Shown here piece after piece: positions 6,941-40,479 of a stretch of DNA of 64,000 nt. Position 1 is the first letter of the stretch. Each line of letters begins with the position of its first letter. The position numbers and the translations under genes are program-made. The notes beneath the pieces were generated by a model. The model had not been told where the DNA came from. It worked only from the letters and a program-made list of their open reading frames with translations, and did no database searches. Where the stretch lies: assembly GCF_000739575.1 (NCBI RefSeq), contig NZ_BBJO01000009.1:124001-188000 (forward strand), given 5' to 3'. The DNA is from Halobellus rufus. Its GTDB lineage: Archaea > Halobacteriota > Halobacteria > Halobacteriales > Haloferacaceae.

Positions 6941-8796
6941 GTGGACCCCGATCGGATTCCCTCGTCGTTTCCGGCCCCGAGCTACCGCGGCGCGCAGGAG
7001 CAGGCGCTCTCGGACGTTCGCGACGCGTTCGCCGCCGGAACGACGTCGTGCTCGTCCGCGCGCCGACGGGGAGCGGGAAGTCGCTGCTCGCGCGGGCCAT
7101 CGCGGGCGCGGCGGCGACGACCGACGAGGTCTCGCCCGCCGCGGCGACCGACGCCTACTACACGACGCCGCAGGTCTCCCAACTCGACGACGTCGCCGAG
7201 GACCCACTTCTCGACGATCTCAACGTCATCCGCGGGAAGTCGAACTACACCTGCATCCTGAACGGCGAGACCGACACGCCGGTCGACCGCGCCCCGTGCG
7301 TCCGACAGTCCGGGTTCGACTGCTCGGTCCGGCACCGCTGTCCGTACTTCTCCGATCGGGCCATCGCCTCGAACCGACGCATCGCGGCGATGACGCTCGC
7401 GTACTTCATGCAGACCGCCGGATCCGACGTCTTCCGCAAGCGCGACGTCGTCGTGATCGACGAGGCCCACGGCCTCGCCGAGTGGGCCGAGATGTACGCG
7501 ACGGTCGATCTGAACCCGCGGACGGTTCCGGTCTGGGACGACGTGGGCGTCCCCGACGTCGCGGCCGAGGGCGACCCCCTCGAACGGACCGTTCGCTTCG
7601 CCGAGACGCTCGCCGGCGTCGCCGAGCGCGCCAAGGACGAACTGCTCCGAAAGCCGGAGTTGACGCCGCAAGAGGCGGCCCGTCGGGACCGCCTCCAAGA
7701 GCTCCGCTCGGAACTCCAGTGGTTCGTCTCCGACTACCGCGACCCCGAGAGCCCGACCACGTGGGTCGTCGACCAGCCCGACGGCGAGGGCGGGGCCATC
7801 TCGATCAAGCCGCTCGACCCCGCGCGCTATCTCCACCACACCGTCTGGGACCGCGGCAACAAGTTCGCGCTGTTGTCGGCGACGATCCTCAACAAGACGG
7901 CGTTCTGCCGGGGCGTCGGCCTCGACCCCTCGAACGTCGCCCTCGTCGACGTCGAACACACGTTTCCGGTCGAAAACCGGCCGCTGTACGACGTGACGCA
8001 GGGGAAGATGACGTACGAGGAGCGAGACGAGACGCTTCCGAAAGTGGCGCGAACGCTGGTCCGGATTATGGCGGAACACCCCGACGAGAAGGGGCTCGTC
8101 CACTGTCACTCCTACGCGATCCAGTCCGAGCTGCGCCGGCGACTCGCACAGCTCGGCCTCGGGGGTCGCGTCCGCGGGCACGACCGCGAGAACCGCGACG
8201 CCGAGCTGGAGTCGTGGAAGGCGACCGACGACCCCGACGTCTTCCTCTCGGTGAAGATGGAGGAGGCGCTGGACCTCTCGGGGGACCTCTGTCGCTGGCA
8301 GGTCGTCTGCAAAGCCCCGTATCTCAACACGAACGACTCCCGCGTCGCCCGCCGCCTCGAAGAGGGGCAGTGGTCGTGGTACCGACGCGCGGCGCTCCGG
8401 ACGGTCATCCAGGCGTGCGGCCGGGTCGTCCGCGCGCCCGACGACCACGGGGCGACGTACCTCGCGGACTCCTCGCTGCTCGATCTCTTCGAGCGGACGC
8501 GCGGCGATATGCCGTCGTGGTTCCGCGAGCAGGTCGACCGGCTCTCGACGCCGGCGCTCCCCGAGTTCGATCAGGTCGCGGCCGGCGGTCGCGGCGGCTC
8601 CGGATCGAACGCCGCCGGGAGCCGAACCGATCGCAGCGGAGGTCGCTCCTCGACGGCGACGGGGCGTAACTCCGCGGAGTCGACGTCGCGGGCTTCGCGC
8701 GCGACGCGGTCGGACGGGACGAGTTCGTCGAGCGATCGCTCGACGGACGACGACCGGTCTTCGCACCCGCTGTCCGACGTCTGGGGCGACGGCTGA
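6941..8796 (+). pseudogene. XPD/DinG-type Fe-S ATP-dependent DNA helicase, frame broken by one base
   Basis: Superfamily 2 RAD3/XPD-like helicase for DNA repair. The N-terminus MDPDRIPSSFPAPSYRGAQE (GTG 6941) is in one frame; the rest, from NDVVLVRAPTGSGKSLL, is in another. Adding one base near 7038 (GCCGGAACG to GCCGGGAACG) restores a 618-residue protein. Motifs: Walker A APTGSGKS; four Fe-S cysteines in NYTC, APCVRQ and GFDCSVRHRCPY; DEAH box VVIDEAHGLAEW; motif VI QACGRVVRAPDD. The tail after about residue 540 is Ser/Arg/Thr-rich and disordered. Everything apart from the lost base is intact, so a base-calling error is likelier than a true pseudogene. Confidence 0.85.
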
Positions 8797-8827
8797 TACG
8801 CGGGCTGCCGCGAAACGTGCAGCGCGC

Positions 8828-8914
8828 TCACAGCAACAGCGCCGCGCCGTACGCGAACGACGACCCGACCATCAGTAACACGAGGACGAGCGCCAGCACC
8901 TGCTGTCGATCCAT
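8828..8914 (-). CDS. 28-residue single-helix membrane microprotein
   Basis: Reads MDRQQVLALVLVLLMVGSSF followed by AYGAALLL, then TGA. It is one hydrophobic helix after a short charged N-terminus. The start MDRQQVLAL and the Gly-Ser-Ser kink resemble very small haloarchaeal proteins that genome pipelines often miss. It is convergent with the helicase gene (31 bp gap). Function unknown; the support is the fitting hydrophobicity and the clean start/stop rather than a recognised family. Confidence 0.6.
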   Translation of the reverse strand: MDRQQVLALVLVLLMVGSSFAYGAALLL

Positions 8915-9100
8915 ACCTGAGCGTTGTCTCGCCTTCGATTCAGTTCTTTCGCTCGCCGACTCGTCGTCTGTGAGTGTGATACGTAATCCGGGCGATTCCG
9001 AAACGGATACATAATGAACGTTAATTTGGTTAGTGTTTTCGGAATCAAAAAGTTAGATTAGGTTCTGTTCTTTCACCTCATTAGAAAAACAGTGTCTCTT

Positions 9101-9115
9101 TGAGATGATATCTCA
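9101..9115. promoter_or_regulatory. inverted repeat upstream of the 62-residue gene's promoter
   Basis: TGAGAT-gat-ATCTCA, 6-bp perfect arms and a 3-bp centre, in an AT-rich 240-bp intergenic stretch. It sits just ahead of a TATA-like ACTTAA at about 9122 and 46 bp before the ATG at 9161, so it could be an operator or activator site. The rest of 8915-9160 is AT-rich with no other gene seen. Confidence 0.35.
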
Positions 9116-9160
9116 CGGAATACTTAACACTCCGAGTTGCGTCTATCCGCGTGTCCGCCA

Positions 9161-9349
9161 ATGTACACACACGGGCTGAACACGGCGATGACCCTGTACC
9201 GGAACGGAACACTGACGCTGTCGCAGGCGGCGTCCCGTGCGGGCCGCTCGACGGACGCGTTCGCGACGGCGCTCGTGCGGCACGGAATCCCGGTCCGCGA
9301 ACGGCAGGGGCGCGCCTCGGCCATCGAGAACTCGGTCGGAGCCGACTGA
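9161..9349 (+). CDS. small HTH-like haloarchaeal protein (DUF7317-like)
   Basis: A 62-residue protein starting MYTHGLNTAMTLYRNGTLTL at the ATG at 9161; a longer start at 9137 exists but is less likely. The core LSQAASRAGRSTDAFATALVRHGIPVRE has the spacing of a helix-turn-helix, as in small UPF0175-type antitoxin-like proteins. I recall haloarchaeal families with this layout (LYRxGTLTLxQAA), but the DUF number is tentative. It is convergent with NMD3. A role in DNA binding is inferred from the fold pattern only. Confidence 0.65.
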   Translation: MYTHGLNTAMTLYRNGTLTLSQAASRAGRSTDAFATALVRHGIPVRERQGRASAIENSVGAD

Positions 9350-9428
9350 CTGCCCGAGGCTGTCGCTCTCGACGAGTGCTGCCCGTTCGGAATCTTCTCA
9401 GCCCGCTCTCTTCATCGTCCTTTGGTGC

Positions 9429-10556
9429 CTACTCGCCCGTTTCGTCGGTTTCGGCACCGTCGGGGAGAATGTGTAGTCCCTCGCGGCTCTTCAGCACCCG
9501 AACCGTCTCGGCGTCGTCGTCGACGTAAGAGGGGCGCGCAATCGTCTTCGACTCGTACGTCTCGGGATCGAGCACTTGGATCGCGCGCTCGTCCTCGACG
9601 GTGACGACCGTCGTCTCGTCGGCGTCCTCGGTGGTCCCGATCTTTCTGGCGTCGGGCGTTTCCCCCTCCTCGAAGCTCGCTTCGTAGGCCTCGCCGGAGG
9701 TGAGCCGCACGCCTTTCAGGTTCCCGCGGACGCTTCTGACCAGCACGGGGCCGTCGTCGTCCGCGGGAGCGACGACGTCGCCGGGGGTGAACTTCGGGAG
9801 CCGCACGGCGTAGGTCACGCGGTACACCTCGTTGCCGTCGCTGTCCTCGGTGACGAGCGTCGGGTACTCCTTGACGTGGCCGCCCAGTTCGCGGACGATG
9901 CGCTTTGCGACCCCGCCGCCCATCTGGTTCGTCGAGATCTTGATGTTCGTGCCGTCGTCGGTCTCCTTGATCTCGGAGATGAACGCCTCGCGGTCGCCGG
10001 TCTCCTCGCGCTCGGTGACGTACGATTCGGCGATCTCGACGGCGCGGGCCTCCTCCTCGTTCGTCGGCGTCCGCCCGTCGGCGCGGACTTGGACGATGCT
10101 GGCGTAGTAGCCGCCGGCGATCCGACCGCAGCGGTCGCACGTCTGCCGGGCGATGAACACCGGCACTGTGACCCGCTCCTCGCGGTAGGTGTCGCGGACG
10201 ACGCCCCCGAACGTGCAGTGCATCCGGATGGTGTTCTCGTCGAGCTGTTCGGGCTCGATCCCCCAGCGGATGTCCTCGGCGTTCACGTGGACGCCGAGCG
10301 CCTCGGTGACCTGGTCGATCGCGACGTCGGTGTAGTCGTCGGCGTCGACGTCGACCCAGCGGTTGCCCTTGTGGACCGCGCCGCACTGCGAACAGACGCG
10401 GACCTCGATCCGCTCGGGAGCGTCGACGAGGTCGAAGTCCTCGAAGTAACAGTCGTCACAGAGGACGGCGTCGCGCTCGCGGGGCTCGCCGGGGAGCGGG
10501 TCGGCGCGCTCTGGAACCGGGTCGCCGCAGCGAGGACAGAACTCTCCCGAACTCAT
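9429..10556 (-). CDS. NMD3-family ribosome export/assembly protein
   Basis: Archaeal homologue of eukaryotic NMD3, which binds the late 60S subunit; archaea have no nuclear export, so a late large-subunit assembly role is inferred. 375 residues from the ATG at 10556 (MSSGEFCPRCGDPVPERADP). N-terminal zinc ribbons: CPRCG, CDDC, CSQCG and CDRCG. The central domain carries TNQMGGGVAKRIVRELGG; a KOW/SH3-like C-terminal part (FTPGDVVAPADDDGPVLVRS) follows. It is divergent from htpX with 109 bp between starts. Confidence 0.9.
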   Translation of the reverse strand: MSSGEFCPRCGDPVPERADPLPGEPRERDAVLCDDCYFEDFDLVDAPERIEVRVCSQCGAVHKGNRWVDVDADDYTDVAIDQVTEALGVHVNAEDIRWGIEPEQLDENTIRMHCTFGGVVRDTYREERVTVPVFIARQTCDRCGRIAGGYYASIVQVRADGRTPTNEEEARAVEIAESYVTEREETGDREAFISEIKETDDGTNIKISTNQMGGGVAKRIVRELGGHVKEYPTLVTEDSDGNEVYRVTYAVRLPKFTPGDVVAPADDDGPVLVRSVRGNLKGVRLTSGEAYEASFEEGETPDARKIGTTEDADETTVVTVEDERAIQVLDPETYESKTIARPSYVDDDAETVRVLKSREGLHILPDGAETDETGE

Positions 10557-12167: not shown

Positions 12168-12174
12168 GCATCTT

Positions 12175-12280
12175 GGCGAACAGTCGGCACCCGCACCGAC
12201 GGCACTGAGCGGCGTCGGCTCCGTTCCCGCGTCGGTGTGCCGAGCAACCGCGGCTCGACGCGGGGCAATCGTCAGCTCAC
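12175..12280 (-). ncRNA. candidate structured small RNA, copy A
   Basis: About 106 nt on the minus strand in the gap between pspAB and a divergent lipoprotein gene. The proposed 5' end is GTGAGCTGA (12280-12272), 30 nt after the first base of the TATA box at 12310-12303. Next comes a hairpin with arms CCCCGCGTCG (12265-12256) and CGACGCGGGA (12234-12225), 9 of 10 pairs, holding the shared GCCGCGGTTGCTCGGCAC. A second stem-loop (CCGAC...GTCGG) and the 3' block GGGTGCCGACTGTTCGCC (12192-12175) follow. Copy B at 38629 shares every block except the second hairpin's sequence. No reading frame with a start is conserved between the copies, so an RNA product is inferred. Confidence 0.6.
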
Positions 12281-12302
12281 GCGGCGTCTGGCCGCCCGCT
12301 GG

Positions 12303-12310
12303 TACATAAA
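12303..12310 (-). promoter_or_regulatory. TATA box of small RNA copy A
   Basis: Reads TTTATGTA on the minus strand, exactly 30 nt from the proposed first base of the RNA at 12280. The same box and spacing (TTTATATA) precede copy B. Confidence 0.6.
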
Positions 12311-12375
12311 CGATCGCCGTCACACCGGTGGCCGTTCCCGTGCCTATTTATCCCCGTCTCGAATAGGTTCGCCTG

Positions 12376-38133: not shown

Positions 38134-38532
38134 TCAGACGCTCGCTGTCTGGAACTGTGAGACGTACGCTGCGAGATCAGTTGTCGTCACGATACCGATG
38201 ACGGCACCCTCGTCGTCGACCACCGGGACGTGGTGGATGCTGTGCTCGATCATCGACTCGGCGACCTGCGCGATCGGGACCTGCGCGGTCGTCGTCACCG
38301 TCGTGTCGGACATATACGTCGAGACGGGCGTCCGATCTTTCGGCTTCCGCTCAGCGACGATCTTCACGAAATCCGTGTTCGTCAAGATTCCAACGAGCTG
38401 ACCGTCGTCGACGACGACGACGGATCCGATCTCCCCGTCCAGCATCTTCTGTGCGGCCTCCTCGACCAGCGTGTCGGGCGAGACGGTGTGTACGGGTGAG
38501 GACATCACTCGTGCGACGAAAATATCGTCCAT
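38134..38532 (-). CDS. CBS-pair protein
   Basis: 132 residues made of two CBS domains (residues 1-60 and 70-130): VVVVDDGQLVGILTNTDFVK and HVPVVDDEGAVIGIVTTTDL. It probably binds an adenosine ligand and senses energy state. No other domain. The small-RNA promoter starts 67 bp from its ATG in the opposite direction. Confidence 0.9.
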   Translation of the reverse strand: MDDIFVARVMSSPVHTVSPDTLVEEAAQKMLDGEIGSVVVVDDGQLVGILTNTDFVKIVAERKPKDRTPVSTYMSDTTVTTTAQVPIAQVAESMIEHSIHHVPVVDDEGAVIGIVTTTDLAAYVSQFQTASV

Positions 38533-38598
38533 ATCTCAGAGACGGGCGTTAACGACTATTAATGATTTGGCTCTCGGCGGTCGACTGTCGGGCGATTG

Positions 38599-38606
38599 TT
38601 TATATA
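38599..38606 (+). promoter_or_regulatory. TATA box of small RNA copy B
   Basis: TTTATATA, exactly 30 nt before the proposed first base of the RNA at 38629, the same distance as in copy A. Confidence 0.65.
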
Positions 38607-38628
38607 CGATGGCGCGGCCAGCGACCCC

Positions 38629-38746
38629 GTGAGCTGAATACTACCCCGCGTCGGGCCGCGGTTGCTCGGCACGACGACGCGGGGAATTGGTGGGCGTCGC
38701 GAACGCGAGGTCGCGCCGCCACCGACACGGGTGCCGACTGTCCGCC
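38629..38746 (+). ncRNA. candidate structured small RNA, copy B
   Basis: About 118 nt. GTGAGCTGA at the start, then a perfect 10-bp stem CCCCGCGTCG (38644-38653) / CGACGCGGGG (38675-38684) around GCCGCGGTTGCTCGGCAC, a second variable stem (GGTGG...CCACC with inner GCG/CGC), and GGGTGCCGACTGTCCGCC (38729-38746). The first stem-loop differs from copy A at only four bases. One A-to-G change between copies keeps a possible pair as G-U. It lies between the divergent CBS gene and the 3' end of uvrC. No conserved start codon or frame. Confidence 0.62.
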
Positions 38747-38747
38747 C

Positions 38748-40479
38748 CTACAACCGATCGCGGATCGTCCGCGCGGTCCGCTCGCCGACGCCGGGGACGT
38801 CGGTCAGGTCCGCCGTCGACGCGTTCCGGACGTTCTCGACGCTCCCGAACCGCCGCAGGAGGGCGGTTCGCGTCTTCTCGCCGACGCCGGGGACGTCGTC
38901 GAGGACCGTCCGGACCTCGTCCCGCAGCGTCTGGTGGTACTGGACCGCGAAGCGGTGCGCCTCGTCGCGGACGCGCTGGAGGACGTGCAGCGCGGGGTCG
39001 TCGCTGTCCCAGTCGTGCACGCCGTCGGGTGTTATGACGAGCTCTCGCTCCTTCGCGAGCGCGGCGACCGGCACGTCCCAGCCGGTCTCCGCGAGCGCGT
39101 CCCGGGCCGCGCCGAGCTGTCCCTCGCCGCCGTCGATGAGCAGCAGGTCCGGATCGGGACGGTCGTCCCGCCCCTCGATGGCGCGATCGGCGCGCCAGCG
39201 GACGAGATCGCGCATTCTCGCGTAGTCGTCGTTGCCCTCCTCGAGTCGTTTCCGGCGGTAATCCGCCTTCTCCGCGGAGCCGTCGACGAAGCAGACGTCG
39301 CTGCCGACGACGGCCGTCCCCCCCGCGTGGCTCACGTCGAACCCCTCGATTCTGGAGACGCTCTCCAGTCCGAGCGCGTCGGCGAGCCTCGCGAGGCCAT
39401 CTCCCCGTTCCGGGCCGCTCCGGGCGTTCTTGAGCGCCAGCTCCACGAGCTTCGATTCCCGGCCGGCACCGGGAACGCGGACGTCGACGCCTTCGGCGTT
39501 CAGCCACGCGACGGCGTCGGCGTCGTCCGGCGCTCCGAGCAGAGGATCGCGTCCGGGAAGTCGCGCTCGGCGTAGTACTGCGTCAGGAACGCCGTGAGCA
39601 CCGCCGCCGAGCGCTCGCCGCCCTCGGGGGCGTCGAGGCGGTGTCGCGATCGGTCGACCAACTGCCCGCGCTCGCTGTGCAGTCGCGCCACCGTCGCACC
39701 GTCTCCCTCGACGGCGACGCCGAGGACGTCGACCGCGCGCTCGTCAGTCCGCGTCGAGACGGCCTCCTCGCCCTCGCCGTGGAACGATTCGACGGGTCGA
39801 GTCGGTCCCGGAGGTTCGCCGCGCGCTCGAACTGCTCGGCCTCGGCCGCCTCGTCCATCGCCCGTCGGAGGGGATCGGCGAGCGCGCCGGTCTCGCCCTC
39901 GAAGAACCGGACGACCGATTCGACGTCCTCCCGGTACGCCTCGGCGCCGATCTCACCGGTACAGGGAGCGGTGCACAGCCCCATCTCGTAATCGAGACAG
40001 GGACGCTCGCGGTTCGCGTACTTGTGGTCCGAACAGCCCCGGAGCCCGTAGGTCTCCCGCAGCGCCTTGACCACGGTATCGACGCGCCCCTTGTCGGTGA
40101 AGGGACCGAAGACCGTCGCACCGGGGTCGGGATCTCGGGTGACCTCGATCCGGGGGATCGAGTGGTCCGTCAGTTGCACCAGCGGGTAGGACTTGTCGTC
40201 CTTCAGCCGGACGTTGTACCGCGGCTGGTGGCGCTTGATCAGGTTCGCTTCGAGCAGCAGCGCCTGCGTCTCGGTGTCGGTGACGGCGACGTCGATCGCA
40301 TCGGCCCGCTCGACCATCTGCCGGATGCGCTCGCTCCGCGGGTCCGCGTACGAGCGCACCCGGTCGCGGACGTCGACCGCCTTGCCGACGTAGACCACGT
40401 CGTCGCCGTCGAGGAACTGATAGACGCCGGGATCGGTGGGCAACTCCGCGGCTCGCTCGCGAAGTTCGCTGTGCTCCAT
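38748..40479 (-). pseudogene. uvrC: UvrC, excision nuclease subunit, frame broken twice
   Basis: Nucleotide excision repair nuclease. N-terminus (ATG 40479): GIY-YIG domain [19 protein letters not shown], then a Cys-rich region and the UVR helix [15 protein letters not shown]. The frame changes near 39795 (GACGGG for GACGGCG), continues [20 protein letters not shown], and changes again near 39530 (CCGG for CCCGG) to the C-terminal nuclease [20 protein letters not shown] and two helix-hairpin-helix motifs. Adding both bases gives 577 residues, normal for archaeal UvrC. All parts are intact, so sequence error is likely. Confidence 0.9.

Follow-up and report, generated by a model that had tools for sequence, protein, structure and literature searches.

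The closest described counterpart comes from Streptococcus pneumoniae, where five highly similar CiaR-dependent small RNAs, the csRNAs, control competence, with action on comC reported in the accessible part of that work (PMC4507080). In archaea, transformation of Methanococcus maripaludis needs a type IV-like pilus, the MinD/ParA protein MMJJ_11080 with its operon partner MMJJ_11090, the TctA-like MMJJ_13030 with MMJJ_13020, and a thermonuclease, and the accessible text of the study describes no RNA among these components (PMC10133366). In haloarchaea, sRNA132 of H. volcanii was reported to be Haloferax-specific (PMC6560208), and 22 of 27 haloarchaeal sRNAs were found to be confined to H. volcanii (PMC3956466). 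A 209-nt intergenic itsRNA of Halobellus limi, STRG.136887.1, is listed as conserved and expressed in an Atacama halite metatranscriptome, as far as the accessible text goes (PMC7002113).

On the evidence of sequence conservation, both sites in the 64-kb window (the whole stretch of DNA analysed here) are genes of one small-RNA family, which is haloarchaea-wide and previously uncatalogued. A first-pass annotation of this DNA had reported two copies, and its coordinates and strands hold (Table 1), as do the distance of 30 nt from the TATA box (TTTAT) to GTGAGCTGA in both copies, a common hairpin with four differences in 41 nt and the 3' end GGGTGCCGACTGT(C/T)CGCC. Its notion of a two-copy family fails, since this genome carries at least 40 full-length copies, while its proposal of an independent structured RNA with its own promoter finds support in the sequence comparisons, although it had missed both the pseudoknot and the sharing of the promoter with leaderless genes. 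The family resembles the csRNAs in consisting of near-identical sRNAs encoded by separate intergenic genes, in having one promoter class and in its link to transformation, here a candidate one. It differs from them, as far as they are described in the accessible text, in that the five csRNAs, to which it has no sequence relation, depend on a bacterial regulator, whereas here up to 60 copies adopt a predicted pseudoknot fold, and in that action on comC is reported for the csRNAs whereas the haloarchaeal family is known here from sequence alone. Like sRNA132, s479 and SHOxi it is a haloarchaeal sRNA encoded by separate genes under basal promoters, but for none of these has a multicopy pseudoknot family spanning the class been described. 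Some H. volcanii sRNAs may nevertheless be members (the conserved H225.2R, hts10 and the EV-enriched HVO_2908s/H3.2), as may STRG.136887.1, for which the accessible text describes no family, pseudoknot or regulon, and single members may already stand among listed H. volcanii or metatranscriptome sRNAs (PMC10927574, PMC7002113, PMC3956466). The open literature searched describes neither the RNA family, nor its promoter class, nor a competence regulon in haloarchaea. We know of no such RNA in any competence system.

Table 1. Features of the two RNA copies in the window and of the genes that mark the slot of copy A (window positions).
Feature	Positions	Strand	Remarks
Copy A, promoter	38599-38628	+	TATA box TTTATATA at 38599-38606; GCGGCCA box at 38614-38620; exact match to TTTATN5AN4GNGRCCA
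Copy A, inferred +1	38629	+	Spacing as to the start codon of leaderless genes
Copy A, RNA body	38629-38746	+	5' GUGAGCUGA ... 3' CUGUCCGCC; covariance-model match 38598-38748, 133.9 bits (training copy)
Copy A, helix S1	38644-38653 x 38675-38684	+	CCCCGCGTCG x CGACGCGGGG; covariation, both-side changes in 7/10 pairs
Copy A, S1 loop	38654-38674	+	Includes GCGGTTGC
Copy A, helix S2 (pseudoknot)	38666-38672 x 38731-38737	+	TCGGCAC x GTGCCGA; covariation, outside the covariance-model structure
Copy A, variable hairpin	38685-38730	+	Within third pseudoknot loop; length and sequence differ among copies, even orthologues
Copy A, unpaired conserved 3' tail	38738-38746	+	CTGTCCGCC; consensus CTGTTCGCC
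Copy B, promoter	12281-12310	-	TTTATGTA and GCGGCCA; exact motif match 12289-12310
Copy B, RNA body	12175-12280	-	Covariance-model match 12173-12311, 124.2 bits (training copy)
Copy B, helix S2	12243-12237 x 12190-12184	-	TCGGCAC x GTGCCGA; pseudoknot pairing
Copy B, helix S1	12265-12256 x 12234-12226	-	
CBS-domain gene	38134-38532	-	Divergent neighbour of copy A; slot marker, outside RNA
uvrC	38748-40479	-	Convergent neighbour of copy A; slot marker, outside RNA; two ORFs in different frames (38748-39446, 39583-40479), a frameshift or an assembly error

Thirty loci from the first BLAST search display one constant order, namely TATA, GCGGCCAGCG, GTGANNTGA, a stem with a GCGGTTGCTCGGCAC loop, a variable region and GTGCCGACTGTTCGCC. 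Judged by covariation, the RNA is an H-type pseudoknot with helices S1 (~10 bp) and S2 (7 bp), in which part of the S1 loop (in copies A and B, TCGGCAC) can pair with GTGCCGA immediately 5' of the 3' tail. This is the topology of H-type pseudoknot RNAs such as the preQ1-II and SAM-II riboswitches and ToxI, in which the loop of a stem pairs 3' of that stem and the third loop may hold an optional hairpin; unlike these, the haloarchaeal RNA has no Rfam match, leads no single downstream gene and does not occur as tandem repeats. In an alignment of 21 copies, none of them from Halobellus, 97.2% of the S1 and S2 cells are paired (99.3% for S2), 10 of the 17 pairs show both-side changes (7/10 in S1, 3/7 in S2) and 55 cells are changed on both sides compared with 16.2 +/- 2.9 in shuffles, a score reached by 0 of 500 shuffles. 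Pairing drops to 28-60% in slid controls and is also reduced when partners are swapped between copies. The covariance model used for searching (R1), trained on 25 copies, has the S1 stem as its sole structure, and S2 covariation on R1 alignments is therefore not built in. S2 occurs as TCGGCAC/GTGCCGA, GCGGCAC/GTGCCGC, GCGACAC/GTGTCGC, ACGACAC/GTGTCGT, CCGGCAC/GTGCCGG and GCGACGC/GCGTCGC, and S1 is wholly rewritten in single copies (CCGGCGGCG/CGCCGCCGG, CCACCGGAC/GTCCGGTGG, CGCGAAGCGG/CCGCTTCGCG), such per-copy listings being illustrations rather than a test because the script selects the best stems. That conservation tracks structure and not codons, as first noted from copies A and B, is supported by an S1 that is fully rewritten between species yet pairs; a protein-coding reading was rejected, with S1 rewritten and variable lengths that are not multiples of three.

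The region between the two helices ranges from 7 to ~90+ nt, so that the variable hairpin, originally described as part of the common architecture and indeed present in copies A and B, is optional family-wide. In the shortest copies the third loop measures 7-8 nt, about the minimum with which H-type pseudoknots span a 10-bp stem. Nested minimum-energy folds of the window copies are not better than those of shuffles (z of -0.25 and 0.20), as expected for GC-rich sequence with a pseudoknot beyond the program's model. The alignments inspected contain neither a C box (RUGAUGA) nor a constant ACA, the features of box C/D or H/ACA guides. Across the alignments the 3' end reads CTGTTCGCC followed by variable sequence, and the RNA probably ends where conservation does, a placement made uncertain by the lack of a terminator-like T-run downstream.

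The covariance-model search of haloarchaeal genomes proposed in the first-pass annotation did find further copies, with the pairing kept. With 150 candidates scored, the at least 40 copies of this Halobellus genome all span model positions 1-137; those of the window score high (E ~1e-33 for A and ~4e-31 for B) by construction because both belong to the training set. Independent of the model, a BLAST search with copy A hit 16 of the 60 related genomes searched (E 2e-28 for the best non-self match), with at least 14 matches in this genome and many in ten related ones. A scan of named genomes for the pattern placed the family in Halobellus. The other 11 copy-bearing genomes of the same genus have 17-60 copies each by R1, and other genera, with more candidates scored, 13-21, the g43 genomes having 2. 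Class-wide, R1 matched 215 of 392 sampled haloarchaeal genomes in 50 of 86 genera, the matches listed being full length, while a phylum-wide sample gave no match outside the order among the matches listed. Matches in bacterial contigs, those of planctomycetes among them (L095, L105, L122), were dismissed as chance, with no covariance-model match, and carriage on plasmids or phages was likewise rejected, blastn against the plasmid and phage collections giving no match. The earlier statement that no named RNA matches also stands: Rfam 15 matched only a tRNA in the window and no family at gathering threshold for the copies, and a permissive search of seven loci, including six non-Halobellus copies, returned only a chance mir-598 match elsewhere. 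Five genomes labelled as the same genus (G001, G008, G010, G012 and G016) have zero detectable copies; their sampled stretches have 40-54% GC, so that a GC-rich model may miss members there, and they are probably a low-GC sister lineage in which either the model fails or the family is absent. A third RNA copy lies at contig positions 189203-189343 (-), 1.2 kb past the end of the window.

Upstream of +1, the consensus is TTTAT-N5-A-N4-GNGRCCA, with the GRCCA box ~10-15 nt before +1. The exact pattern has 30 matches in this genome, compared with 0 for the reversed pattern, and these divide into 26 RNA copies and four leaderless genes whose ATG or GTG start codon occupies the position of the RNA's +1/GTG. 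Matches of this kind were found in 12 of 12 genomes from nine genera. Six of the first 20 matches that R1 had not found are further RNA copies, and in 13 of the remaining 14 a start codon follows at 30-35 nt, counted from where the TATA box begins. By these sequence criteria, the upstream block is a promoter common to the RNA copies and to leaderless protein genes. The TATA-to-GTGA block, of constant spacing, is a shared promoter element outside the RNA: inclusion of the GCGGCCAG block in the RNA was rejected since the block precedes leaderless start codons with the same spacing, and its pairing with the CTGTTCGC tail was rejected as showing no covariation by inspection, GGGACCAG occurring with an unchanged tail. 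From promoter and covariation together, we infer that the RNA is transcribed from GTGNNCTGA.

An idea of the function of the family comes from the protein genes behind the same motif. Those that recur across genera are a DUF7310/7311/T2SSE/T2SSF/DUF7283 type IV-pilus ATPase operon, a DUF7382 protein whose N terminus resembles that of pilins, DUF7857 with a MinD ATPase behind it, a PLD nuclease and a NucS_N protein; other genes with the motif encode a ParA-like ATPase, a rad3/XPD-like helicase, DUF4013, DUF3006, a short TctA and, each named from a weak match, a Cas4-like protein and a HerA-like ATPase. In the short TctA genes the motif lies 31-34 nt before the start in 10 of 10 genomes (9-12 of 12 positions), and in the same upstream survey of ten genomes the long TctA paralogues have no motif. 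It is the overlap in pilus, MinD and TctA with the M. maripaludis set, which in its accessible description comprises a type IV-like pilus, MinD/ParA with its operon partner and a TctA-like membrane protein (PMC10133366), that leads us to call the set a candidate DNA-uptake (natural transformation) regulon of haloarchaea. The likeness is partial: in addition to the RNA, which the accessible text on M. maripaludis does not describe, the predicted membership of thermonuclease failed, the upstream regions of haloarchaeal SNase-type thermonuclease genes being devoid of the motif, and the regulon therefore does not cover the whole Methanococcus gene set. Loop complementarity to regulon mRNA starts (9/20 compared with ~3 expected, a weak result from a mononucleotide shuffle) is a lead only. 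Two loci may be mentioned here: a type IV-pilus-like cluster (L174:1-12001, with DUF7310, T2SSE, T2SSF and DUF7283-7285) carries the GRCCA promoter three times and has a gene for the tubulin CetZ (8769-9857) in divergent orientation, and in genome G094 an RNA copy lies ~2.3 kb downstream of a short TctA promoter, with the motif at both (L245:1414 and 3768).

Our main reading, to which we assign a probability of roughly one half, is that of a multicopy trans-acting RNA of the haloarchaeal DNA-uptake regulon that shares its promoter and is likely to be a feedback regulator. When the regulator of the GRCCA promoter is active, all copies would be transcribed together with the pilus, MinD, TctA and nuclease genes, and the ~80-120-nt RNA would fold into the H-type pseudoknot, which would fix the geometry of three constant single strands, the 5' GUGNNCUGA, the loop GCGGKUGY and the 3' CUGUUCGCC. 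Through the constant loop and tail, all copies would do one job in trans on a common partner, their number acting as dose, and the RNA would most likely feed back on the uptake state. Co-regulation of RNA and protein genes is suggested by the common promoter and trans action by the fact that only constant segments are conserved, with nothing slot-specific even between orthologous slots, whereas the feedback role is preferred by analogy with the five csRNAs of pneumococcal competence. The wider proposal, that a natural-transformation regulon with a promoter class to itself is conserved in haloarchaea and that its most abundant member is the pseudoknot RNA (up to 60 genes per genome) rather than a protein, as integral controller or RNP component of DNA uptake, is made tentatively. 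Haloarchaea gain here a class-wide sRNA family with strong covariation support, described haloarchaeal sRNAs appearing mostly species-restricted, and the TATA and GRCCA promoter code points to a candidate competence regulon, in which the TctA-like protein is a candidate DNA transporter of archaea; haloarchaeal DNA uptake and its control become directly testable through deletions and reporters.

The places in which the copies lie might suggest a more local role. All are intergenic, about 70 of 103 face a convergent gene, in many cases with -4 to 50 nt between the end of the copy and the stop codon of that gene, and same-strand neighbours often begin 100-130 nt downstream. Some slots also seem common to different families, with gene names assigned by eye: a DUF389-like gene (L046/L193), the convergent gene of L035/L156 and an archaeosine transglycosylase (L036, L150, L151). 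Together with the missing T-run, this is what would be expected of cis-acting elements, each transcribing into its neighbour, as antisense silencer or structured leader, and acting where it is made. However, the divergent/convergent arrangement emphasized in the first-pass annotation is the majority pattern without being universal, all four neighbour orientations being found among ~101 copies (51 '-,-', 18 '+,+', 17 '+,-' and 15 '-,+'). Moreover, no common function is evident among neighbouring genes, the position expected of a cis leader or riboswitch, in the 5' UTR of a sense gene, is at odds with the two thirds of copies that face a convergent gene, and a loop and tail kept constant class-wide within a pseudoknot would be needless, all of which makes cis action unlikely.

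It is more doubtful still that the RNA is a structural part of the uptake machinery, as a scaffold or guide-less cofactor of a helicase or nuclease, and not a regulator. The promoter in common with nuclease, helicase, ATPase and pilus genes would fit such an RNP, as would a constant 3D frame with no guide-like variable segment conserved by slot, but no RNA-binding protein has been identified in the regulon and the copies vary from 1 to 60 without evident parallel change in the protein set.

Evolution in place favours a selected family over a MITE-like dispersed element, either selfish or domesticated, that took over the regulon promoter and spread its copies in the genome. The CBS gene-uvrC slot holds a copy in nine of nine other Halobellus genomes examined and none in seven outgroup genomes; within it, the flanks, the six nt before S1 and the variable hairpin have diverged and the sequence downstream of the RNA is not conserved, whereas S1, S2, loop and tail persist, the S1 stem being replaced in one orthologue (L065) by TCCGGGCCGG/CGGCCCGGA. 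When 53 copies of other Halobellus species were compared with only 30 of this genome's own, 16 shared both flanks and 13 one flank, which gives 29 of 53 with at least one; the other 24 matched none of the 30 slots, many slots being species-specific. A high, variable (1 to 60) and dispersed copy number would suit a mobile element, and Halobellus copies are more alike, with an S1 near-homogeneous within the genus that suggests amplification there; in genome G262, by contrast, S1 differs among copies, which must therefore be old. Since the slots are intergenic and many are conserved between species, the family appears to be selected and mostly vertically inherited. With copies that are full length in the model search, compensatory changes that keep the pairing in orthologous slots, no match in plasmids or phages and no terminal inverted repeat apparent by eye, we consider the mobile origin a slim possibility. 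An omega-RNA of the IS200/IS605 kind would be linked to tnpB and carry a 3' guide; no neighbour gene is consistent among ~100 copies, and orthologues differ in the sequence downstream of the RNA. A DNA-level element, either an uptake signal or a protein-binding palindrome, would account for a dispersed repeat tied to a putative DNA-uptake regulon but is very improbable, given an S1 sequence free to change with pairing kept, interleaved S1/S2 pairing that fits a single folded strand, a promoter at fixed distance in each copy and 2-60 copies per genome, far sparser than known uptake sequences with their thousands per genome.

Inserted or adjoining repeats were seen at a few copies of the RNA. 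At L216:2761-3012, the loop of a copy is seemingly broken by an insert of ~80 nt, possibly a MITE, whose ends are inverted (TCACCGCGTTTGCAA/TTGCAAACGCGGTGA), and MITE-like inverted repeats lie in or adjoin the copies at L009 and L064 (ATAGGGATTATCGTAA...TTACGATAATCCCTAT; ATAGTGATTACTCTC...GAGAGCAATCACTAT).
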